Shown piece after piece: positions 3,393 through 25,608 of a stretch of DNA of 25,968 nucleotides. The notes beneath the pieces are model-generated. The model was not told the origin of the DNA. It was given only the letters and a program-made list of their open reading frames with translations, and did no database searches. Both the position numbers and the translations under genes were made by a program. This DNA is from a virus. The stretch spans positions 1-25,968 of the IMG/VR virus record IMGVR_UViG_3300015371_000150; one strand, 5' to 3'. How positions within the stretch are numbered: position 1 is the first letter of the stretch; each line of letters starts with the position of its first letter.

Positions 3393-3631
3393 CAGCGCGT
3401 GACCTTGGTGCCGAGTTCAGCCATGTCGATGATCGTCGAGTACTGGGACGGCGCGTTGGCCCCGCTCGGCGTGAGCTTGGCGTAGTTGCTCATCGAGCGC
3501 TGCCACGGGTTGCCCTTGGTCACCTCGTCCATCGCATGACGCGACGGCAACAGCTGCTGCTTGCCGCCCTTGCCCTTGTGCTGGATCAGGCGGCCAGTGC
3601 CGGGATTGATCTTGCTGGGACCGTATTTCAT
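3392..3631 (-). CDS. Small basic head-region protein (79 aa)
   Basis: 79 residues, basic and Gly/Ser/Pro-rich, beginning MKYGPSKINPGTGRL, with IQHKGKGGKQQLLPSRHAMD in the middle. It reads like a largely unstructured small structural or assembly protein. Its ATG overlaps the stop of the gene before (AATGA) and its stop overlaps the ATG of the next (TGATG), placing it firmly in the portal-scaffold operon. No family is recognised. Confidence 0.6.
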   Translation of the reverse strand: MKYGPSKINPGTGRLIQHKGKGGKQQLLPSRHAMDEVTKGNPWQRSMSNYAKLTPSGANAPSQYSTIIDMAELGTKVTR

Positions 3632-3930
3632 TTGATTTTCGGCATCTTGGGCATCGACGGCATCTTCGGCCCAACCTTGATGTTGGGCGCGGTCGGTGCC
3701 TTGGCGGCGCTCTGCGCCTTGTTCATCGAGATGCCGCCACCGACCTGCGTCGGCTTGCCGGGCACGCCGCCTGCGCCCTTGGGCGGCTTCTGGATGCCGA
3801 ACTCGCCCGCGCCGCCGAAGCTCGAGCCGAGCGATTTGGCGCGCGGCTTGGGCGGTGGCACGGTGCCCTCGCCGCCCTGCCGCAGGGCTGCTGACATGGG
3901 GAGTTTCTTTTTGAAGCCACCGATGGCCAT
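3628..3930 (-). CDS. Low-complexity basic head-region protein (100 aa)
   Basis: 100 residues, very rich in Lys, Pro, Gly and Ala, ending in a repetitive PKMPSMPKMPKIK tail; predicted to be disordered. Start ATG at 3930 has GGGAGG six to seven bases upstream. That Shine-Dalgarno is part of a copy of the TAACCAC...GGTTA dyad (3933-3948). It is coupled to the next gene by an ATGA overlap. It might be a capsid-internal or DNA-contacting protein, but that is inference from composition only. Confidence 0.6.
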   Translation of the reverse strand: MAIGGFKKKLPMSAALRQGGEGTVPPPKPRAKSLGSSFGGAGEFGIQKPPKGAGGVPGKPTQVGGGISMNKAQSAAKAPTAPNIKVGPKMPSMPKMPKIK

Positions 3931-3932
3931 GA

Positions 3933-3948
3933 TAACCTCCCGTGGTTA
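3933..3948 (-). promoter_or_regulatory. TAACCAC-family dyad (copy 1), also carrying stop codon and Shine-Dalgarno
   Basis: On the minus strand the element reads TAACCACGGGAGGTTA, identical to the copy at 12712-12727. Its first three bases are the stop codon of the 108-residue gene and its GGGAGG is the ribosome-binding site of the next. Whether it is bound by a protein here is inference. Confidence 0.5.
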
Positions 3949-4272
3949 AGGCGCGCTCTGGCCGCCCTTGGCGGGCATCGAACCGCGCTGGCCGAACATG
4001 GCGGCCTTGCCGCCCTCGGCGAACTTGGCGTTGCCGCCTGATTTGGTCGGGCCGGAAGTCCCGGCCTTCTGCGGACCGGCATAGTCCTTGTTGGTCGTCG
4101 CTTCGGAGTAGAAGCCGTCGCCCGGCCCGCCCGCCTGCGGCTCCTGCCCACTCGAAATACCGCTCGATCCTTCCTGCGAGGACACACCGGGCTTCTGTGT
4201 CGCCGTACCTTTCGCCGGATGCATCGACGCATTGCCGCCGCTCAAGAACGGCGCGCGATCACCATTGGCCAT
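3946..4272 (-). CDS. Gly/Ser/Ala-rich small head-region protein (108 aa)
   Basis: 108 residues of low complexity, with many Gly, Ser, Ala and Gln and a few aromatic residues, likely disordered. I chose the ATG at 4272 (MANGDRAPF) because the GGGAG is six bases upstream; the in-frame ATG at 4278 would abut the site with no spacer. The portal stop (4275-4277) lies between them, giving tight coupling. It lies immediately downstream of the portal. Function unknown; a minor virion protein is plausible. Confidence 0.6.
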   Translation of the reverse strand: MANGDRAPFLSGGNASMHPAKGTATQKPGVSSQEGSSGISSGQEPQAGGPGDGFYSEATTNKDYAGPQKAGTSGPTKSGGNAKFAEGGKAAMFGQRGSMPAKGGQSAP

Positions 4273-7081: not shown

Positions 7082-7099
7082 GCGAACTTTAAAGTTCGC
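7082..7099. repeat. CGAACTTNNAAGTTCG dyad, copy 1 (centre TA)
   Basis: GCGAACTTTAAAGTTCGC, a perfect 18-bp palindrome between the small terminase gene and the 37-residue ORF, ending six bases before that ORF's ATG. It is the only copy inside the virion module. Confidence 0.9.
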
Positions 7100-7218: not shown

Positions 7219-8666
7219 TCAGCATCGACTTCTCGCCGCCGCCGACCGGCGCGTCGTTCATGATGAGCGACAGCTTCTACCGCATGATCTTGGGCCCGCT
7301 CGGTTCGGGCAAGACCACCACCGTCCTGTTTGAACTGATCCGCCGGGCCTGCGAGCAATGGCCCGGTCCCGATGGCATCCGGCGCACCCGCTTTGCCCTG
7401 CTGCGGCAGACGCTGTCGCAGCTGAAGAACACCGTGCTCAAGGACATCGTCGGCTGGTTCGGCGCGATCTGCGACTGGAAGGTCTCCGAGAGCACCGTCC
7501 ATTTCAGGTTTGGCGATGTCGTGTCCGAATGGATGCTATTGCCATTGGAGACCCCGGAAGATCAGAAAAGAATATTGTCGATGAACTTGACGGGCGCGTT
7601 CGTGTCGGAGGCAATTGAAATCGATTTTGACTTGCTCGTCGCCATCGCCGGTCGGTGCGGCCGTTTTCCACTTCCGGCAGACGGAGGAGCAAAGTGGTAC
7701 GGCGTCGTTCTCGATAGCAACATGCCGACCGAGGGGACGCCATGGCATGAAGCTGTATCATCGCCGCCTCCCGAGTGGCAGATTTTCATCCAGCCGTCTG
7801 GCCTGTCGGAGGACGCCGAGAACCTCAACTGGCTGCTTCAGACGCCCGCGACCCTTGCGCTTCCGCTTGACCATCCCGACCGCTTGGCGAAGGGCCGGGA
7901 ATATTACCAGCGGCTCTCGACGTCGACCAACCCGGCGTGGGTCAAGCGCTATGTAATGGCAGAGTTCGGTCCTGATCCGAGCGGCGCGGCTGTGTACGCC
8001 GGAATGTTCTTCTCGGGCTTTCACTGCCGCGACGAACTCTTGGTCATCCCCGGTGCGCCGCTCCTGATCGGCATGGACCTTGGCCGCGACCCGTGGGCCC
8101 TGCTGGGCCAGATCGACAGCCAGTCGCGCCTGCTCATCCATGAGGAAATCCCCGCCGACGACATTGGACTGAAACTGCAACTGCCGCGTATCCGGCAGGC
8201 CGTCAATGGCCGCCGCTATGTCGGTTGCCCGGTGTGCATCATCTTCGACCCGGCAGGCATGTCGAAGAGCCAGCACGACGAACTCACCTCGTTCGACGTC
8301 ATCCGCTCGTTTGGCTTCATGGCGATGCCCGCGCCGTCGAACCGGCTTGCGCCGAGATTGAATGCCGTCGAGCGCTTCCTGACCGAAAGCCGGGGCGGCA
8401 CGGCGGCAATGCTGATCAACCGCTCGCTCTGCCCAACCTTGGTCGGGGCGTTGAACGGGAACTACCGGTTTGTCTACAACCAGATTGGCGAGAGCCAGCC
8501 GATCCCCGAAAAGAACAAGTGGTCCCACGTCGCCGACGCCCACCAGTATCTGTGTCAGGGCGCGTCGGGCAACACCGCCAGCGCCATCGCGCGCCGCGTG
8601 GTGCGGGCGCGCGATCTGGCTCATATGAAGCGCCGCGCCGCCCCCTCGGCGGCGGGCTGGACCTAA
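7215..8666 (+). CDS. terL: Terminase large subunit (packaging ATPase/nuclease)
   Basis: 483 residues. Walker A is GPLGSGKT at 27-34. The segment after it (RILSMNLTGAFVSEA, ending near 132) matches the region where terminases place the Walker B/catalytic Glu and the coupling motif. The RNase H-like nuclease follows: first acidic residue in LLIGMDLG (D288), second in CIIFDPAG (D345), third in WSHVADAHQY (D441). It drives ATP-powered DNA translocation into the prohead through the portal and cuts concatemers. The start at 7215 is coupled to the small ORF by ATGA. Its stop codon overlaps that of the convergent gene. It runs opposite to the head genes on both sides. Confidence 0.93.
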   Translation: MISIDFSPPPTGASFMMSDSFYRMILGPLGSGKTTTVLFELIRRACEQWPGPDGIRRTRFALLRQTLSQLKNTVLKDIVGWFGAICDWKVSESTVHFRFGDVVSEWMLLPLETPEDQKRILSMNLTGAFVSEAIEIDFDLLVAIAGRCGRFPLPADGGAKWYGVVLDSNMPTEGTPWHEAVSSPPPEWQIFIQPSGLSEDAENLNWLLQTPATLALPLDHPDRLAKGREYYQRLSTSTNPAWVKRYVMAEFGPDPSGAAVYAGMFFSGFHCRDELLVIPGAPLLIGMDLGRDPWALLGQIDSQSRLLIHEEIPADDIGLKLQLPRIRQAVNGRRYVGCPVCIIFDPAGMSKSQHDELTSFDVIRSFGFMAMPAPSNRLAPRLNAVERFLTESRGGTAAMLINRSLCPTLVGALNGNYRFVYNQIGESQPIPEKNKWSHVADAHQYLCQGASGNTASAIARRVVRARDLAHMKRRAAPSAAGWT

Positions 8667-9082
8667 GTGACGATGATGGCGTTGGACGTCGCCGGGGCCG
8701 ACGCCCCGGCTCCATTGGTTGCCACCATGACGCAGGTCGCCGTCTTGCCGACATCGCCCACGGCACGGGTGTAGGTCGCCGCGTTGGTGCCGACGTTGGC
8801 CCCGTCGATCTTCCACTGGTAGGAGCGCGAGGTCGGCGCGCCCTCCCAGTTGCCCAAGGTGCAGCTGAGCGTCGTTCCCGTCTGGCTGATGAACGGCGCA
8901 TCGACCACGACGGGTGGCTGAAGCTGATCGGCAATGTCGGCCATGTCGGCCTCGAACACCGCGATCATCTCCTCCTGCAGGAAGGCAGGGGTGCGCGACA
9001 GGATGAACTCGCGCGCCTCACGGCGAGCTTGAGATTTTAGCTGGCCGTAGAGGTCCTGTGCGTATTGGACGTCGGTGGTCAT
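8663..9082 (-). CDS. Structural-type protein with Ig-like domain (139 aa)
   Basis: 139 residues in two parts. Residues 8-48 are helical (AQDLYGQLKSQARREAREFI, LSRTPAFLQEEMIAVFEADM) and repeat a segment of the neighbouring 152-residue protein. Residues 60-139 look like a bacterial Ig-like fold (SQTGTTLSCTLGNWEG... YQWKIDGANVG... YTRAVGDVGKTATCVMVAT). Such domains are common on phage surface or tail proteins, where they bind carbohydrates weakly. The ATG overlaps the preceding stop (ATGA). Its TAG (8663-8665) overlaps the terL stop, so the two genes converge with no terminator between them. Confidence 0.7.
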   Translation of the reverse strand: MTTDVQYAQDLYGQLKSQARREAREFILSRTPAFLQEEMIAVFEADMADIADQLQPPVVVDAPFISQTGTTLSCTLGNWEGAPTSRSYQWKIDGANVGTNAATYTRAVGDVGKTATCVMVATNGAGASAPATSNAIIVT

Positions 9083-9537
9083 GGAGCGACGCGTCGCGCG
9101 TTGGCGTCACGCCCCGTATCGAGTTCGTTGCGGACCGGCTCGAGCTTCTCGCCCGCGCGGGCAAACTGCGGGCTGCTGTCGGCGATGGCAGGCTTCTGCT
9201 TGGAGACGCGGCCCTGCTCGCCCTGCACGCGGACGAGCGCACCGGGGTCCTCGGCAGGCGGCACCGGCCAATCAGCCTCGATCTTGGTGACCATGTATTC
9301 CTGATAGGCGGCCGGAGTGCGGGCCAGCACGTAGTTGCGTGCCTCGGCAGTCGCCATTGGCTTCAGCTCTTCGTAGAGCAGGTCGGCCTCGGCCGTTTCC
9401 TCGGGGGTCAGCGCGAACTCGCCGACAGTGGGTGCATCGGCGGTGGGCGCGGGCGCGGGCGCGGACGCAACGGGATTAAGATTGGGATTGAGGTTGGGGT
9501 TGAAGTTCGGGTCGGCGGGATACTGCGGTGCGCCCAT
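9079..9537 (-). CDS. Structural-type protein, paralogue of the Ig-domain protein N-terminus (152 aa)
   Basis: 152 residues. The N-terminus has an Asn-Pro repeat (FNPNLNPNLNPV at 12-23) and an Ala/Pro linker. Residues 46-90 (LYEELKPMATAEARNYVLAR then TPAAYQEYMVTKIEAD) align with the first half of the next gene's product. The C-terminus is charged and probably disordered. AGGAG lies seven bases before the ATG at 9537. It is coupled to the next gene by ATGA. The pair probably arose by tandem duplication with later gain of the Ig domain. Function is unknown; a minor virion component is plausible. Confidence 0.65.
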   Translation of the reverse strand: MGAPQYPADPNFNPNLNPNLNPVASAPAPAPTADAPTVGEFALTPEETAEADLLYEELKPMATAEARNYVLARTPAAYQEYMVTKIEADWPVPPAEDPGALVRVQGEQGRVSKQKPAIADSSPQFARAGEKLEPVRNELDTGRDANARRVAP

Positions 9538-9605
9538 GGTGCTCTCCTAGAGGGGGTGACGATCAGGTGGGTCGCCGCTTCGCTGTCGCTCGCGGCGCCC
9601 CTAGA

Positions 9606-9794
9606 TCATAGCAGCCCCTTGGCGGTGAGCAACCACTCTGGCGCAGTCAAAGTCCAGATGTGTTGAGAGGGATGTTTCTCAAGCTCCGCCTGCGACTTCG
9701 GTATCCACGCCTCGTGCGTGCCATCGCTCACCAGCCACGCTTTGCCGGTCTCGTGTTTGAGATCGACGGTGATGTCGACGAGGTCGCTTCTCAT
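9606..9794 (-). CDS. Conserved small phage protein (62 aa)
   Basis: 62 residues: MRSDLVDITVDLKHETGKAW, then a VSDGTHEAWIPKSQAELE segment and a C-terminal WTLTAPEWLLTAKGLL. This compact beta-strand protein is familiar as a small conserved hypothetical of proteobacterial phages and prophages (VDI.V.LKHET.KAWLVSDG pattern, from memory). Its ATG overlaps the preceding stop (ATGA). A 65-base gap to the next gene contains a GC-rich inverted repeat without a T tract. No biochemical role is known to me. Confidence 0.7.
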   Translation of the reverse strand: MRSDLVDITVDLKHETGKAWLVSDGTHEAWIPKSQAELEKHPSQHIWTLTAPEWLLTAKGLL

Positions 9795-10087
9795 CGCCGC
9801 TTCCCGGCAAGCGTCTCGCTGACCCGGCCGGAATTGACGCCGACGCGCAGGCCGATCTGCATCTGGCTGGCGTCGGTTGTTCTGGCGAGGTCGCGGATGC
9901 GCGCCTTGAGCTCAGGCGTGAGCGGCGGCGAACGCGGCTTGGTCATGCGGACCGGCTTGCGCCGCTTCATGTGGCCGATGACGAAGCGGATGCGACGGGC
10001 CATCGGTTTGTCGTGCGGCGCGATCTCGCGGGCAATGATCGTCAAGAGGCCACGGCACTCGGGAATGGTGAGGTGCTTGCGGGTCAT
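9791..10087 (-). CDS. HTH protein of the leftward small-gene operon (98 aa)
   Basis: 98 basic residues. The C-terminal half (LTPELKARIRDLARTTDASQ, MQIGLRVGVNSGRVSETLAG) has the spacing of a resolvase/transposase-type helix-turn-helix: helix, LARTTDAS, helix, GVNSGRVSETL. The N-terminus is MTRKHLTIPECRGLL. It could be a DNA-binding regulator of late genes. I chose the ATG at 10087, which overlaps the preceding stop (ATGA), rather than upstream codons inside the zinc-finger gene. It is also coupled to the following gene by ATGA. Confidence 0.6.
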   Translation of the reverse strand: MTRKHLTIPECRGLLTIIAREIAPHDKPMARRIRFVIGHMKRRKPVRMTKPRSPPLTPELKARIRDLARTTDASQMQIGLRVGVNSGRVSETLAGKRR

Positions 10088-10479
10088 GGGGTCACCTTCA
10101 GCGGGTTGGGGAGTGCGACGACGTTGTAGTCGGGATGCTTGGTCGCCATGTGACGCTGCATGTTGACGAAGCTGCGGTTGCAGCACGGGCAGAGCCCGGC
10201 CTTGGTGCGCGTGCGGTGGCGTTTCAGGTCACGCTGGGCGGCGTTGCGGTCGCGGATCGCCTTCTGCGCTTCCTCGTGCAGCCGGGCATTGGCCTGTTCC
10301 AGTTGCTGGCGCTTGCGGCGCTCGATGTCGACCTCACGCTCGCCTGTGTAATGCCAGCTGTGGCCGTTCGGACAGTAGATCGACTTACGGTCCTTGACCT
10401 CGCGCGCCTTGCGCTCAAGCCCCTCTGGGATGGCGTACTCGATCCAGCAGGAGGGACAAATCACGGTGGCGAGGCTCAT
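10084..10479 (-). CDS. Zinc-binding coiled-coil protein with C2H2 finger (131 aa)
   Basis: 131 residues with two metal sites. The first uses C8, C11 (ICPSC), C36 and H40 (YCPNGH); the second is a classic C2H2 finger, C97-x2-C100-x9-H110-x4-H115 (CPCCNRSFVNMQRHMATKHP). A coiled coil (about 50-88, rich in Glu, Arg and Gln) links them. Proteins with the same CPxC...FYCPxGH-coil layout occur widely in phages, usually unnamed. It is probably a nucleic-acid or protein adaptor. Its ATG overlaps the stop of the upstream gene (ATGA). Confidence 0.65.
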   Translation of the reverse strand: MSLATVICPSCWIEYAIPEGLERKAREVKDRKSIYCPNGHSWHYTGEREVDIERRKRQQLEQANARLHEEAQKAIRDRNAAQRDLKRHRTRTKAGLCPCCNRSFVNMQRHMATKHPDYNVVALPNPLKVTP

Positions 10480-10958
10480 TTGCGATCCTCCAGCCCCAGT
10501 GCCTGTTTCACCGACCAGCCGCGCTGGATGCGGCGGTACACGGTCTGGTAATTCTCTTTTACCTTGTGGGTCGCCATCGCCTCGACCAGCGTCATCCGCT
10601 TGCCGTTGACGGCAATCAGAGGGACGGCACTGCGCGGACCGCCAAACAGCTTGAAGCCCGACTTGGTGAACTTGCGCTGGTAGCGCTCGACCATGGCGTC
10701 GCCCTTGGACTTTTCGAGGCCGATGTTCACCGCCATCAACTCGAAGTCCTTGATGTCGCCCTCGGGCAGGTCGCGCAGGTGATTGCGCTTGGTCTTTTTC
10801 CGATGACGGACCATCGACGCCAGCACGGCCGCACGACCCCGCGCATTGGTGGTGTAGCTGATGAACACGGCACGCTTGCGCTTGTGGGTCAGGATCAGGA
10901 TCGCGGGCTTGAGGGGCATCGGGGTCGGATCGCTTTTAAGGGGGGTGTCGTAAGCCAT
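10476..10958 (-). CDS. GIY-YIG-like protein with C-terminal HTH repeat (160 aa)
   Basis: 160 residues, first gene of the leftward operon. Residues about 29-100 (RAVFISYTTNARGRA... MVRHRKK... DFELMAVNIGLEKSKGDAMVERYQ) have the layout of a GIY-YIG nuclease: strand pair, T.N...R, His, then a Glu in a helix. The opening GIY/YIG motif is degenerate (VFISYTT). The end (MTLVEAMATHKVKENYQTVY, RRIQRGWSVKQALGL) matches the small HTH repeats of homing endonucleases. I chose the ATG at 10958, with GGAG six bases upstream. Alternatives: an inactive relative or unrelated DNA-binding protein. The consensus promoter at 11033-11061 reads into it. Confidence 0.45.
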   Translation of the reverse strand: MAYDTPLKSDPTPMPLKPAILILTHKRKRAVFISYTTNARGRAAVLASMVRHRKKTKRNHLRDLPEGDIKDFELMAVNIGLEKSKGDAMVERYQRKFTKSGFKLFGGPRSAVPLIAVNGKRMTLVEAMATHKVKENYQTVYRRIQRGWSVKQALGLEDRK

Positions 10959-11032
10959 TCTGTACTCCGTCATTAGAACCGGTCTAAAAGGTTTCCCGTG
11001 AAACAACGTAGAACGTTGAGTGGGAAGCCACC

Positions 11033-11061
11033 ATTATAACCGCTGGTGGTTAGGATGTCAA
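11033..11061 (-). promoter_or_regulatory. Consensus sigma70 promoter with operator in the spacer
   Basis: On the minus strand TTGACA (11061-11056), 17 bases, TATAAT (11038-11033): both hexamers match consensus exactly. The spacer is almost filled by a TAACCAC-family dyad at 11037-11052. It should start transcription near 11026, feeding the leftward operon from 10958. A protein bound to the dyad would block RNA polymerase directly. Confidence 0.85.
11037..11052. promoter_or_regulatory. TAACCAC-family dyad (copy 2), operator between -35 and -10
   Basis: On the plus strand TAACCGCTGGTGGTTA, a dyad with one mismatched pair of positions per arm in the left half. It spans the spacer and touches the -10 box of the leftward promoter, a classical repressor position. 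Confidence 0.6.
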
Positions 11062-11103
11062 GTGGTAATTCTTAAAAATTGGGTTCCCAGATTTTTGAGA
11101 TGG

Positions 11104-11133
11104 AAAAAGCGCCCACGGCGGGGGCCGCCGCTT
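11104..11133 (-). terminator. Probable leftward terminator upstream of the promoter
   Basis: On the minus strand AAGCG...CGCTTTTTCC encloses a GC-rich stem (GGCGG/CCGCC), and an outer GAGATGGA/TCCATCTC pairing extends it. The T run after the hairpin points leftward. It would insulate the leftward promoter from antisense transcription. Confidence 0.5.
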
Positions 11134-11153
11134 GTCCATCTCCCGCGTGGCTT

Positions 11154-11293: not shown

Positions 11294-12094
11294 ATGGCTA
11301 AGCAAAGCAATACGATCTCGGCGATTGCTGCCGAGAGCAAGACGGTAGAGAACCTGCCGATCAAGGACTATCGCAAGCACGCGATGTCCATCGCCAACAC
11401 CGCGTCGGAAGGCACGTTGCAGACGACGCTGGCATTGATGGGCTTCTACGGTGCTCGCAAGGGCGGCGAGAAGTTCGACTTCAACACCGAGGTGTTTGTC
11501 CCGTTCTCCGAGGAGTACTACAGGCCGGAGAAGCGCCGCAAGCCGCTGAAGGGCTTCAGCCCGGACGGCAAGCATGAGGCGAAGTCCTCGGCGCTCACCC
11601 AGCTTCGCGGTTACACCCACTTCGTGACCGCTGGCCAGAACAAGACGCACGATCTTTCGAGCGTCGTGAAGGCCGTGCTCGGTGACCTGCGGATCGCCAC
11701 TATCGGCATCGGCGCGAAGGGCGCGTTGGTCACGAAGATCGTCACCGACGCGAAGGGCAAGCTGCCCGTCGCTGGCGACGTCGACAAGGCCGTGGTCGAC
11801 AAGATCACGGTCGAGGACGGCAAGACCAACGCGGTCACCGTGGCGAAGTCGCTGCGCTCGCGGCTCGCGGCGCTCACGGCGGACACGGATTTCGTGGCCG
11901 CTCTGAACCCGACAACGGCGGCGCTGTTCAACGCGCTCACCGAAAGCACGGTCGCTTTCGCTCAGGCCGTGATCGGCACGAAGGCTGGCAAGCCGGGCGA
12001 GGCGGAGGCGAAGGCGAACAACGATCTTCTCGCCGCCGCCGCGAAGCTCGTGGCCCCCGCCGAGAAGACCAAGCGCCGGGCCCGCGCATCGTAA
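11294..12094 (+). CDS. Early protein of unknown function (266 aa)
   Basis: 266 residues, no recognised family. Residues 20-130 look folded (LMGFYGARKGGEKFDFNTEV, FVPFSEEYYRPEKRRK, LRGYTHFVTAGQNKTHDLSS); the C-terminal 90 residues are Ala/Lys-rich helices ending in a basic tail (EKTKRRARAS). CAGGAGAG lies eight bases before the ATG. It stands alone between a dyad repeat and a strong terminator, next to the origin-like region, so it may be an abundant early DNA-binding protein. A segment resembles one in the 247-residue protein at 13844. A single-strand-binding role is possible, but no OB-fold motif can be shown. Confidence 0.7.
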   Translation: MAKQSNTISAIAAESKTVENLPIKDYRKHAMSIANTASEGTLQTTLALMGFYGARKGGEKFDFNTEVFVPFSEEYYRPEKRRKPLKGFSPDGKHEAKSSALTQLRGYTHFVTAGQNKTHDLSSVVKAVLGDLRIATIGIGAKGALVTKIVTDAKGKLPVAGDVDKAVVDKITVEDGKTNAVTVAKSLRSRLAALTADTDFVAALNPTTAALFNALTESTVAFAQAVIGTKAGKPGEAEAKANNDLLAAAAKLVAPAEKTKRRARAS

Positions 12095-12209: not shown

Positions 12210-12225
12210 TAACCACGGGTGGTTA
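12210..12225. promoter_or_regulatory. TAACCAC-family dyad (copy 3)
   Basis: TAACCACGGGTGGTTA, inside a longer inverted repeat (12207-12228, CATTAACCAC/GTGGTTAATG around GG). No clear promoter overlaps it. It sits at the left edge of the gene-free region. Confidence 0.6.
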
Positions 12226-12370: not shown

Positions 12371-12713
12371 GAGCGCTTGATTACGGTCGGATTGAAAATC
12401 GGATTACAGGCGTTGGATTAGCTACGGCAAAATTGTCTATACATTATAGTGAGTTACTCTATTACTATAATATATACCTACGCTGGCTACGTCGATTTAC
12501 AACTAAGCACCCCACGCGAGAATGACTTTGGCCCACAATTTATGGGCCAGACCTAATCTCGCAGGAGGTACCTAGCGCAAACTGCCGTATTTATCGTCGG
12601 ATTAGCCATGTCAAACGAATAAGCCCTTGACATCATTACGATTTAATGGTAAGTTCCTATTTGACATACGTCGGATTAGATACCGAAAAGCGGTGGATTA
12701 GAGCGCTTGATTA
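12371..12713 (+). repeat. Two copies of the 13-mer GAGCGCTTGATTA
   Basis: Identical at 12371-12383 and 12701-12713, bracketing most of the GGATTA iterations. The second copy runs into the TAACCAC dyad before the 86-residue gene. Confidence 0.7.
12516..12562 (+). other. Two-tier stem-loop in the control region
   Basis: Outer GCGAGA (12516-12521) pairs with TCTCGC (12557-12562); inner TGGCCCA (12529-12535) pairs with TGGGCCA (12543-12549); the two are separated by a symmetrical 7-base internal loop. An AGGAGG follows at once (12563-12568) without a usable start codon. It may be a small RNA or a structured origin element. Confidence 0.45.
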
Positions 12714-12727
12714 ACCACGGGAGGTTA
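12712..12727. promoter_or_regulatory. TAACCAC-family dyad (copy 4), containing the Shine-Dalgarno
   Basis: TAACCACGGGAGGTTA; its GGGAGG is seven bases before the ATG at 12732. A protein bound to the DNA, or to the RNA, would sit on the gene's own translation start. Confidence 0.6.
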
Positions 12728-12731
12728 ATAA

Positions 12732-12992
12732 ATGCCGAGGAAACTATCCTATGAACAGAAAATCAATCTCTGCATTCGGCTAATGCAGGGAGAACACCCA
12801 ATTGAACTCGCCGCCAAGTTTCCAGTAAAGGCACACACAATTTGGCGACTGGGAACAACCGTCGAGAGGTTGGAACACACGAGACTGTTTCTCATTGAAC
12901 GCTACGGCAGTGTCGCCGCTGCCGCAGAGGCTTTGCACTTCACAAGCAAAGCGCGGAGGATGCTCCGCACTCACTTCGGCGACGAACTTTAA
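12732..12992 (+). CDS. Small putative HTH protein (86 aa)
   Basis: 86 basic residues: MPRKLSYEQKINLCIRLMQG, then EHPIELAAKFPVKAHTIWRL with the spacing of a transposase/Trp-repressor-like helix-turn-helix, and a second helical stretch GSVAAAAEALHFTSKARRML. It is the first gene after the origin-like region and has a TAACCAC dyad over its ribosome-binding site, so self-regulation is attractive but unproven. The C-terminal EL and stop codon are provided by a CGAACTT dyad. It could be a Cro-like regulator or an origin-binding protein. Confidence 0.6.
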   Translation: MPRKLSYEQKINLCIRLMQGEHPIELAAKFPVKAHTIWRLGTTVERLEHTRLFLIERYGSVAAAAEALHFTSKARRMLRTHFGDEL

Positions 12993-13843: not shown

Positions 13844-14587
13844 ATGGCTAGCAAAGACGACAACATCGCTGCCGCCAAGGCAGCTGCCTTCGAGCACATC
13901 TCTGAGATCGGCAAGCGCGAGGGGCAGGGAGCCGTCGCGCGCATCGACCTTGCCGAGTACGTCACCAAGCAGTCGCAGGATGGCGTGTTCGAGCCCGATG
14001 ATGCGGCCGAGGCATGGACCCGCATGTCCGAGGCATCGCTCAAGGAGCAGGACAGCGTCGGCGGCAGTGAGCAGACGTTCAGGCAGCGGGTCAGTGACAT
14101 CCGTCACTTCATCCTGCTCGGCAACAACAAGAACATCGATGGTGTTCAGGCTCTTGCCGACTTCAAGGCGCGCATGCAGGCTATCCGGGCTGATCGCACG
14201 GGGGCAAAGGGGAGGGTGTGGCCGATGATGCTGAAGTTCGCACAGGCGCAGGCTCCCAAGACCAGCACGCTCACGGTCAAAGCGATGGACGAGTGCTGCA
14301 CCTTGCCGCCGCCACCGGCCAAGCCGAAGCGGGTCGAGAAGTTGTGGCGGTTGCGCGAGGCGCTCAATGCCGCCAACGAGCGCTTCGAGGATAAGCGCAT
14401 CCAGCAGGCGATCAGCCTGATCGACGAGACTGTCACTGCTCTCGGCGGCACCAAGTCCCAGCGCCTTGCCGCCAAGAAAGCCGAGGCCAACGCCAGAGAG
14501 AAGGCAAAGAAAGCCGCTGCCAAGGCCAAAAAGATTGCCGCCAAGAGCGGCAACGGCACCAAGAGAAAAGTCACCAACGAACTTTAA
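13844..14587 (+). CDS. Unknown early protein with histone-like Lys/Ala tail (247 aa)
   Basis: 247 residues. The folded part (about 1-190) includes VSDIRHFILLGNNKNIDGVQ, which resembles a segment of the 266-residue protein at 11294. Residues 195-247 are a Lys/Ala-rich tail (AKKAEANAREKAKKAAAKAK then KIAAKSG), like histone H1 or HU-tail sequences, suggesting DNA binding. AACAGGAG precedes the ATG by eight bases. A CGAACTT dyad supplies its final EL and stop. It could be a DNA-coating early protein; no catalytic motif is seen. Confidence 0.7.
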   Translation: MASKDDNIAAAKAAAFEHISEIGKREGQGAVARIDLAEYVTKQSQDGVFEPDDAAEAWTRMSEASLKEQDSVGGSEQTFRQRVSDIRHFILLGNNKNIDGVQALADFKARMQAIRADRTGAKGRVWPMMLKFAQAQAPKTSTLTVKAMDECCTLPPPPAKPKRVEKLWRLREALNAANERFEDKRIQQAISLIDETVTALGGTKSQRLAAKKAEANAREKAKKAAAKAKKIAAKSGNGTKRKVTNEL

Positions 14588-19807: not shown

Positions 19808-20029
19808 ATGCCAGCTGTCAGCTTCGATGACGTCGAGGAGAACGACGTCATCAGGGTATCGGAGGACATGGAGGTATGGCGCAACTGCCTGCTGCTCGTC
19901 GAGGAGGTGAGATCGTGGGGTGTGACCGGGACTGTGTTCTGTCCGCAGGAGGAGGAGTACCCGATGCGCCTGACGTGGGGTGAGATCGCTGCGGTCTATC
20001 GCAAGATCGAGCTAACCACCGGTGGTTAA
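19808..20029 (+). CDS. Small SH3-like acidic protein (73 aa)
   Basis: 73 residues: MPAVSFDDVEENDVIRVSED, then MEVWRNCLLLVEEVRSWGVT and GTVFCPQEEEYPMRLTWGEI. Alternating strands suggest a small beta-barrel. AGGAGG lies six bases before the ATG. The stop codon is inside the TAACCAC dyad (20013-20028). It ends the unit before the promoter at 20045. Function unknown. Confidence 0.65.
   Translation: MPAVSFDDVEENDVIRVSEDMEVWRNCLLLVEEVRSWGVTGTVFCPQEEEYPMRLTWGEIAAVYRKIELTTGG
20013..20028. promoter_or_regulatory. TAACCAC-family dyad (copy 5), perfect palindrome
   Basis: TAACCACCGGTGGTTA, the only copy with full symmetry. It lies 17 bases upstream of the TTGACA of the promoter that follows and contains the stop of the 73-residue gene. 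The position suits a repressor or activator. Confidence 0.65.
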
Positions 20030-20036
20030 GTCGACA

Positions 20037-20073
20037 TTATCCACTTGACATTGTGGATAAACTGTGTCATACT
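20037..20073 (+). promoter_or_regulatory. Sigma70-like promoter within an inverted repeat
   Basis: TTGACA (20045-20050), 17 bases, CATACT (20068-20073) with an extended TGT before it. TTATCCAC (20037-20044) and GTGGATAA (20053-20060) form an inverted repeat on either side of the -35. The minus strand at 20052-20060 reads TTATCCACA, a perfect DnaA-box sequence. Transcription should begin near 20080, inside dyad copy 11. Confidence 0.7.
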
Positions 20074-20077
20074 ATTG

Positions 20078-20095
20078 GCGAACTTAAAAGTTCGG
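20078..20095. repeat. CGAACTTNNAAGTTCG dyad, copy 11 (centre AA)
   Basis: GCGAACTTAAAAGTTCGG. The 16-bp core is intact but the last base merges into GGAGG, the ribosome-binding site of the next gene. It lies at the predicted transcription start. Confidence 0.9.
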
Positions 20096-21369: not shown

Positions 21370-21572
21370 GGAGGCTGCCGGTGCCTGTTCCCATCGAACG
21401 GATCGAGGTGGTCGAGTGCCCACACAAGACGTGCGGCATCTTCATCACCAACGTTCCGCAACTGGCACCCGGCAGCGTGTTCATCTGTCCGTTCTGCCGT
21501 AATGGCTTCGAGCCCAACGAGAGAAAAGTTATCAATGTATACAAACTGAACCCACCCTCCCGTAGTCCCTAA
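21366..21572 (+). CDS. Zinc-ribbon protein, GTG start (68 aa)
   Basis: 68 residues with cysteines in EVVECPHKTCGIFI and FICPFCRNGF, a compact zinc ribbon flanked by strands (PVPIERIEVV and KVINVYKLNPPS). The GTG overlaps the preceding stop. Its own stop is inside a TAACCAC dyad (21570-21585). A nucleic-acid or protein adaptor is likely. Confidence 0.65.
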   Translation: MRRLPVPVPIERIEVVECPHKTCGIFITNVPQLAPGSVFICPFCRNGFEPNERKVINVYKLNPPSRSP

Positions 21573-21585
21573 CCACGGGCGGTTA
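21570..21585. promoter_or_regulatory. TAACCAC-family dyad (copy 6)
   Basis: TAACCACGGGCGGTTA; it contains the TAA stop of the zinc-ribbon gene and precedes AACAGGAG of the 150-residue gene. No clear -35/-10 pair was found around it. Confidence 0.55.
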
Positions 21586-21598
21586 ACAGGAGAGACCA

Positions 21599-22051
21599 AT
21601 GGTCACAAAAATCAAGGAACCCGAACTCCACACATGGGATCGGGTTCGCCACCCAATGACCGGCATGAAGCTGCGCAAGCCGAAGTCGATCACGCGCAAG
21701 ATGGTAGAACGCTGGGACATCTGCTACGAGGGCGTCGTATGGTTCGACCATATTGCGCCGAGTGGGCAGTTCCCTCTTAACGATACGTTCATCGAGCAGG
21801 CGTTCTCTCGGCGCATCGTCGAGATGCGCTTCAAGACTGTATGGTTTAGCTGGCTGGCCATACGGGTGTTCAGCGCGTTGTCCAAGCAGACCAAGGGCAA
21901 CGTCACGGCCAACCGGGCGCTCAACGCCAAACTGAAGGAGTTCATGGCGGCGGTCACCCTCGTGAGCTTGCGCGACCTGCCCGAGGGCCTGCGTGCCATC
22001 GAGCATGCCCGGCTGGGCCAGTTGTTCGTCCGCATCTTGGGCGAACTTTAA
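21599..22051 (+). CDS. Unknown basic protein (150 aa)
   Basis: 150 residues: HTWDRVRHPMTGMKLRKPKS near the start, RRIVEMRFKTVWFSWLAIRV in the middle and a helical C-terminus (AKLKEFMAAVTLVSLRDLPE). AACAGGAG lies before the ATG, after a TAACCAC dyad. Its final EL and stop codon come from CGAACTT dyad copy 12. No family recognised. Confidence 0.65.
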   Translation: MVTKIKEPELHTWDRVRHPMTGMKLRKPKSITRKMVERWDICYEGVVWFDHIAPSGQFPLNDTFIEQAFSRRIVEMRFKTVWFSWLAIRVFSALSKQTKGNVTANRALNAKLKEFMAAVTLVSLRDLPEGLRAIEHARLGQLFVRILGEL

Positions 22052-24959: not shown

Positions 24960-25307
24960 ATGTTCCAGATCACATGCTACGTCGACGATAAGAACCTCGG
25001 AGAGGTGTTCAAACGCCTTGCCGGGATCGGCAGGAACGTGACGCACATCTACATGCCGAACCTCGATCCGAAGCCCAACGGACAAGTGCGTGCGACAGCG
25101 CGCGAGACGCAGGAGTTACTCGCCAAGGAGATCACCAAGCGAGGTTGGAAGGAGTTCAAGGGACCTGACGTCAAGGACGTTCTCGGTAAGCTCGGCATGC
25201 CGACGAGCTCATACTCGTACTTCATTCAGCAACTCGTGAAGGCTGGGTTCGTGAAGAAAGGAAAGATGGACGGCAACATCAAGTCCTACGTTGTCGTGAG
25301 CAAGTAG
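24960..25307 (+). CDS. Winged-helix-like phage protein (115 aa)
   Basis: 115 residues. The N-terminus (MFQITCYVDDKNLGEVFKRL, then VTHIYMPNL) is a ferredoxin-like strand-helix unit; the C-terminus (GPDVKDVLGKLGMPTSSYSY, FIQQLVKAGFVKKGK) has a winged-helix pattern with a small hairpin. AACAGGAG precedes the ATG, after dyad copy 13. It may be a DNA-binding accessory of replication or regulation. It is one base from the next gene, so they are co-transcribed. Confidence 0.65.
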   Translation: MFQITCYVDDKNLGEVFKRLAGIGRNVTHIYMPNLDPKPNGQVRATARETQELLAKEITKRGWKEFKGPDVKDVLGKLGMPTSSYSYFIQQLVKAGFVKKGKMDGNIKSYVVVSK

Positions 25308-25308
25308 C

Positions 25309-25608
25309 ATGGCAAAAGGCACCACACCCAAGGGACCGATGAAGCTCTATCGGTCGTACATGTTTCGGAACAAGGACCCTGCCATCGACGAGTTCAGGAC
25401 CGTCATGCAGGAGGAGTACGGCACGAGCAAGTTGACGCGCAAGATGATGAAGGAGGTCGAGACCCAAGGCGGTCCGACTGCCAGCACCATCCGCAACTGG
25501 TTCGAGGGCGACACCAAACGACCCATGAACGCCACCATCGAGGCAGCGGGCAGAGCGCTCGGTAAGCGGCGTATCTGGGTTGACGACAAGCGCAAAAATG
25601 GAAAGTGA
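25309..25608 (+). CDS. XRE-like HTH protein (99 aa)
   Basis: 99 basic residues. Residues about 27-90 match the helix-turn-helix layout seen in small phage regulators: RTVMQEEYGTSKLTRKMMKE, GGPTASTIRNWFEGDTKRPM, then ATIEAAGRALGKRRIWV. The STIRNWFEG...P...T.EA..RALG part is typical of XRE-type DNA-binding domains. It lies just before the DNA polymerase promoter and is a candidate repressor for one of the repeated dyads. It has no nearby ribosome-binding site of its own, and it starts one base after the previous stop. Confidence 0.7.
   Translation: MAKGTTPKGPMKLYRSYMFRNKDPAIDEFRTVMQEEYGTSKLTRKMMKEVETQGGPTASTIRNWFEGDTKRPMNATIEAAGRALGKRRIWVDDKRKNGK

Follow-up and report, generated by a model that had tools for sequence, protein, structure and literature searches.

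Does the inverted repeat that lies between the two hexamers of a perfect sigma70 promoter in a phage genome serve as an operator, and does it stand alone? We addressed this question for a leftward promoter in a window of 25,968 nucleotides of viral DNA (IMG/VR record IMGVR_UViG_3300015371_000150, positions 1 to 25,968). Very probably the palindrome is where a regulator docks to switch the promoter off, and the same regulator perhaps acts at many other places in the genome.

Promoter and dyad in front of the leftward operon

Read on the minus strand, the -35 hexamer TTGACA (11061-11056) is followed by a 17-bp spacer, TCCTAACCACCAGCGGT (11055-11039), and the -10 hexamer TATAAT (11038-11033), which form a leftward promoter of the sigma70 type. 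The sequence-only reading of this DNA had described two consensus hexamers with a spacer of 17, and this description was borne out: 11061-11033 is the sole instance in the window of a 12/12 sigma70 match with a spacer of 16-18, and 0.0004 such matches with a spacer of 17 would be expected on both strands from base composition. From the position of the -10 hexamer, the transcription start is predicted near 11026.

The same reading had the promoter drive a leftward operon ending at 8663, and the operon part of that claim agrees with the gene arrangement, in which six close-packed genes, with overlaps of mostly 4 nt, run from the ATG at 10958 to 8663. The operon end at 8663, where a search for an intrinsic terminator of leftward transcription found none, abuts the convergent end of terL at 8666. 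The first gene, lead161 (10476-10958, minus strand; 160 aa), has in its C-terminal part a weak likeness to the DNA-binding segment of HNH endonucleases, and the remaining minus-strand ORFs (8663-10479) are 10084-10479, 9791-10087, 9606-9794, 9079-9537 and 8663-9082. Just upstream of the promoter, between the divergent operons, a conserved non-coding stretch (11062-11150) consists of AGATGGACA, a GC-rich stretch and AAAATCTGGG, in that order. This stretch is also found at the same place in the related contigs L010, L013, L014, L015, L017 and L020, and in the window its GAGATGG and CCATCTC could pair around a GC-rich stem.

The dyad, TAACCACCAGCGGTTA (TAACC-N6-GGTTA, 16 bp, 11052-11037, minus strand), covers 14 bp of the spacer and the first 2 bp (TA) of the -10 hexamer. 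It had been placed exactly in the spacer, which holds for 14 of its 16 bp and is slightly loose for the two that belong to the -10.

Dispersed palindromes in the window

A pattern search allowing up to three mismatches found six sites in the window (3933, 11037, 12210, 12712, 20013 and 21570), with 13 strand matches, one of them spurious, against a shuffle mean of 0.78. For TAACC-N6-GGTTA as such, six occurrences compare with 0.01 expected. We refer to these sites as B dyads. The five other than the promoter copy lie at or near gene boundaries. The dyad at 3933-3948 (minus strand, TAACCACGGGAGGTTA) contains the stop codon of gene 3946-4272 and a Shine-Dalgarno sequence, and ends 2 nt before the ATG of gene 3628-3930; the one at 12712-12727 (plus strand, also TAACCACGGGAGGTTA) provides a Shine-Dalgarno sequence 4 nt before the ATG of a small HTH-like gene at 12732. 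In these two sites, the Shine-Dalgarno sequence is the GGGAGG end of the dyad. At 3933 and at 21570-21585 (plus strand, TAACCACGGGCGGTTA, 13 nt before the ATG at 21599), the upstream gene uses the TAA of the dyad to terminate translation, and the 21570 site is identical to the promoter copy at 14 of 16 positions. The dyad at 12210-12225 (plus strand, TAACCACGGGTGGTTA) is intergenic, and that at 20013-20028 (plus strand, TAACCACCGGTGGTTA) lies where gene 19808-20029 ends, with a second promoter-like site, TTGACA-17-CATACT (20045-20073, plus strand), 16 bp downstream.

This second site has a palindrome of another family (20079-20094) at its predicted start. Around its -35 hexamer (20035-20065), the DnaA-box-like sequences TTATCCAC and GTGGATAA face each other. 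The HTH-like gene at 12732 is preceded by a long gap (12385-12705) with an AT-rich stretch and several short repeats of GGATTA; this gap could be a replication origin.

The other family, A, has 13 copies of GCGAACTT-WW-AAGTTCGC in the window, with ends that vary in three and none inside a called gene. These 18-bp palindromes (GCGAACTTTAAAGTTCGC), at 7082, 11154, 11259, 12156, 12982, 13803, 14577, 15800, 17607, 18620, 20078, 22041 and 24926, are perfect or near-perfect, and in many cases AACAGGAG and a start codon come next. The relatives have palindromes of their own in the A role: CTTATA-N4-TATAAG in G002, TTAACANNNTGTTAA in G003, TTGACATNATGTCAA in G004, G005 and G008, and TTACC-N6-GGTAA in Rhizobium phage RHph_TM3_14A. 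In G005, the perfect promoter TTGACATGGTGTCAAGGGGGAAGTATAAT overlaps the A palindrome of that genome.

Promoter and dyad in related phages

A TerL search yielded 29 viral contigs (L010 was also found separately), and the named phage reached by TerL was Rhizobium phage RHph_TM3_14A, with identities of 44% for terL and 58% for the portal protein. Relatives were not recovered when viral contigs were searched with lead161 alone, DNA searches of phage records, both near and distant, gave nothing useful, and no terL relative was found in bacterial genomes, hence there was no host or prophage evidence from them. The related sequences come from metagenomes, as contigs whose completeness is unproven; four of them have two designations here (L014 is G003, L020 is G008, L015 is G004, and L013 is G002).

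Homologues of lead161 (58-69% identical) are present in L010, L013, L014, L015, L017 and L020 with alignable upstream regions. In L015 the promoter of the homologous gene is TTGACA-TCGCTAACCGCCGGGGT-TAAGCT with the dyad in the spacer, and in L017 it is TTGACA-AACCCCCGAGGTTAAGC-TATATT with a dyad of one mismatch in the spacer. The promoters in L010 and L020 are TTGACA-17-TACCAT and TTGACA-17-TACCTT, respectively, and there the dyad (TAACTCCGGGGGTTA or TAACCTCGGGAGTTA) begins one base after the -10 hexamer. In these four relatives the dyad overlaps the core promoter of the homologous gene, two having it in the spacer and two immediately beyond the -10. Such a symmetric site on the core promoter, conserved in relatives, is what an operator would be expected to look like. 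L014, the relative with the most dyads, has a core promoter of the lead161 gene without a dyad. In L013, the promoter is decayed (TTAACA), and the 58-kb record has no B dyad; an HNH-endonuclease-like ORF (L013:14000-14550) separates this promoter from the first leftward gene.

The relatives carry a 15-bp version of the dyad, TAAC-YYC-S-GRR-GTTA (TAACNNCNGNNGTTA). This pattern occurs 34 times in G003, 19 times in the 38 kb of G008, 12 times in G004, four times each in G001 and G006, three times each in G005 and G007, and not in G002; the reversed pattern occurs in none of the eight records. With gene positions from a simple gene caller made for this analysis, 27 of the 34 sites in G003 and 17 of the 19 in G008 are at least partly outside genes, as compared with 12-16% of random positions; the effect is weaker in G004 (5 of 12). 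A recurring layout at the junctions is a TAA stop codon that opens the dyad, a Shine-Dalgarno sequence within it, 1-5 nt, and an ATG.

We also counted overlaps with intergenic promoter matches of at least 10/12 in the window and five related genomes (n=15). A B dyad overlaps five of the 15, against 0.83 expected from random intergenic placement (P about 0.0002). When A or B palindromes are counted, the overlap is eight of 15 against 1.67 expected, of which the A part is inflated by construction because the A palindrome contains TTGACA in G004, G005 and G008; the B count is free of this inflation. The configuration of the window is found once more at G004:53152-53124, TTGACA-TCATTAACCCCCGGAGT-TATGAT, with the dyad in the spacer. 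Promoter occlusion cannot be all that the B sites do, as many of them are not close to a promoter.

IMG/VR matches to TTGACANNNTAACCNNNNNNGGTTATAAT were considered as members of the same network and rejected, as five of them precede phage groEL-like genes, each in an unrelated contig that has one dyad. In the unrelated viral contigs L002, L003, L004, L008 and L009, TTGACAnnnTAACCnnnnnnGGTTATAAT precedes a phage groEL-like gene, and L008 agrees with the promoter of the window in 27 of 29 bases.

Search for the regulator

Neither a tyrosine or serine integrase nor a repressor of the HTH_3 type was found in nine records, among which the window is a fragment; control genomes gave matches in the HTH_3 search. 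A possible DNA-binding regulator is the 86-aa protein encoded at 12732-12992 (plus strand): its start region overlaps a B dyad, and its L013 relative has a resolvase-type HTH score (HTH_7). At the head of the divergent rightward operon, the first gene (11294-12094, plus strand; 266 aa; variable family A4) encodes a candidate partner of the B dyads, by position and co-variation only. It belongs to a fast-changing family and is remotely similar to a universal 247-aa protein (13844-14587), which is a candidate regulator of the variable A palindromes. The 247-aa protein is all-helical, is present in every long relative examined, and has no clear PDB match.

Structure predictions for the 247-aa protein and for the first rightward gene of L020 revealed no known DNA-binding fold. 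The best PDB match of the AlphaFold model was weak for both, with Z 6.8 over 89 residues (rmsd 3.5) for the 247-aa protein and Z 5.9 over 72 (rmsd 2.8) for the L020 gene, values that are common for helical proteins. Both models had the same two proteins as best viral matches, strongly for the 247-aa protein and with E 1.1 for the L020 gene, which hints that the two may be remote paralogs.

Other proteins were considered as B binders and rejected. The XRE-like 99-aa protein (25309-25608) and its neighbour are both missing from G003, which has the most B sites, and lead161 is retained in G002, which has no B site. The 25309-25608 product looks by eye like an XRE-type helix-turn-helix protein, which no profile confirmed, and the gene pair 25309-25608 and 24960-25307 is common to the window, G004, G005, G008 and L023.

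Discussion

We consider it probable, from the sequence comparisons, that a strong sigma70 promoter at 11061-11033 drives the leftward operon (10958-8663), that the spacer of this promoter is an operator, and that the other five B dyads are bound as well, these three being judged together; that the operator-in-promoter reading is right is by itself very likely. The spacer would be an operator for a symmetric, dimeric DNA-binding protein. Upon binding of the dyad, this protein would mask the DNA at and between the hexamers, so that the host RNA polymerase could not start; the same protein on the other five dyads at gene junctions could block initiation or a passing polymerase. The configuration had been called that of a tightly repressible promoter. 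That view gains support because the association of promoter and dyad recurs at the same gene in L015, L017, L010 and L020 and the overlap exceeds chance; repression, its timing, the binding protein and a roadblock role at the junctions are what we infer, and the dyad is one of a dispersed family. It would be one node of a larger, multi-site and phage-specific operator network.

A quite different role would be that of RNA hairpins that couple translation at gene junctions, with the promoter copy being incidental. The junctions invite this idea, since many sites have TAA as a stop codon and GGAG or GGGG separated from the next ATG by GTTA and 1-5 nt, and the folding energy of the window site at 12712 is -6.4 kcal/mol. 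The 15-bp site, in contrast, folds at -0.5 kcal/mol only. In RNA, C.A is unpaired and U.G is paired, yet at half-site positions 5/11 and 6/10, in the transcribed orientation and away from starts, C.A is as frequent as U.G (22 versus 19). The innermost C7 and G9 are invariant although they would be loop positions in RNA, a result to be read with the search pattern, which required both; a looser TAAC-N7-GTTA search in G003 gave 38 sites versus 34, only four further. An Rfam search gave no match, and the overlap with promoter cores above chance also argues against hairpins, which we regard as an improbable explanation. The pattern of variation fits a protein dimer on duplex DNA rather than an RNA hairpin.

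If a protein binds the dyads, it might be an activator or a replication or nucleoid protein, the promoter dyad being one of many coating or origin sites. The spread of sites across early and structural regions in relatives would suit such a protein. Consensus promoters, however, need no activator, the dyad sits between and over the hexamers of a 12/12 promoter, where binding blocks polymerase, and it stays on the core promoter in four relatives despite moving; we hold this explanation to be unlikely. Less credible still is that a host regulator reads the dyad, for example CtrA of Alphaproteobacteria. The named relative infects Rhizobium, and CtrA sites are known in alphaproteobacterial phages, but CtrA requires TTAA-N7-TTAA (PMC9437464), a box that the dyad sites do not contain: the window dyads are at most TTAA-N10-TTAA, and the relatives mostly have C or G before TAAC. 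The dyad sequence also shifts between close relatives, which a phage-encoded partner fits better.

For the preferred reading of the dyads as operators, the nearest functional model is found in mycobacteriophages of Cluster A (L5, Bxb1), in their operator/stoperator system. Both would combine one operator at an early promoter with many dispersed sites, and in both the consensus drifts between relatives (PMC6550527, PMC9283540). Cluster A stoperators are 13-bp, asymmetric, directional and monomer-bound (PMC9283540), whereas the sites described here are perfect or near-perfect dyads of 15-16 bp and are not asymmetric elements in one orientation. Cluster A genomes have about 20-30 dispersed sites, as compared with 34 in G003, 19 in the 38 kb of G008, 12 in G004, six in the 26-kb window fragment, three in G005 and none in G002. 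Cluster A phages are temperate and carry integrase or partition genes, while no tyrosine or serine integrase was found in the nine records, and their repressor has an HTH and a stoperator domain, while only the HTH-like 86-aa protein was seen here.

In lambda pL/oL1 and pR/oR1, too, an operator lies within the 17-bp spacer of a strong sigma70 promoter. The lambda operators, however, form clusters of three with CI/Cro as their regulators; here there is one dyad per promoter with a different half-site, TAACC, and no HTH_3 protein was found in the nine records. The start-associated and extended start-associated sequences of Cluster K mycobacteriophages also recur directly before start codons, in part as inverted repeats, but they comprise a 13-bp asymmetric element and 17-bp inverted repeats with a spacer, and no promoter overlap is reported in the parts of the source consulted (PMC3203893). 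RHph_TM3_14A (MN988472) shares the portal/terminase arrangement and has a palindrome family of its own, TTACC-N6-GGTAA in 26 copies, which differs in sequence; lead161 and the TAAC dyads are absent from it.

Tentatively, we propose that these podovirus-like phages, in which no integrase was found, may use a genome-wide silencing or timing network with one or two phage-specific palindrome families on early promoters and gene junctions, where the same bases serve as stop codon, Shine-Dalgarno sequence and protein-binding site, and that the specificities may diverge between close relatives as those of immunity groups do. Mycobacteriophages offer the best-known cases of dispersed repressor sites that also act outside promoters. 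With a second phage group that is unrelated to them, has symmetric sites whose specificities change rapidly, and includes a cultured Rhizobium member, one could test how such networks originate, whether they exist in the absence of lysogeny, and how regulators and their sites co-evolve.
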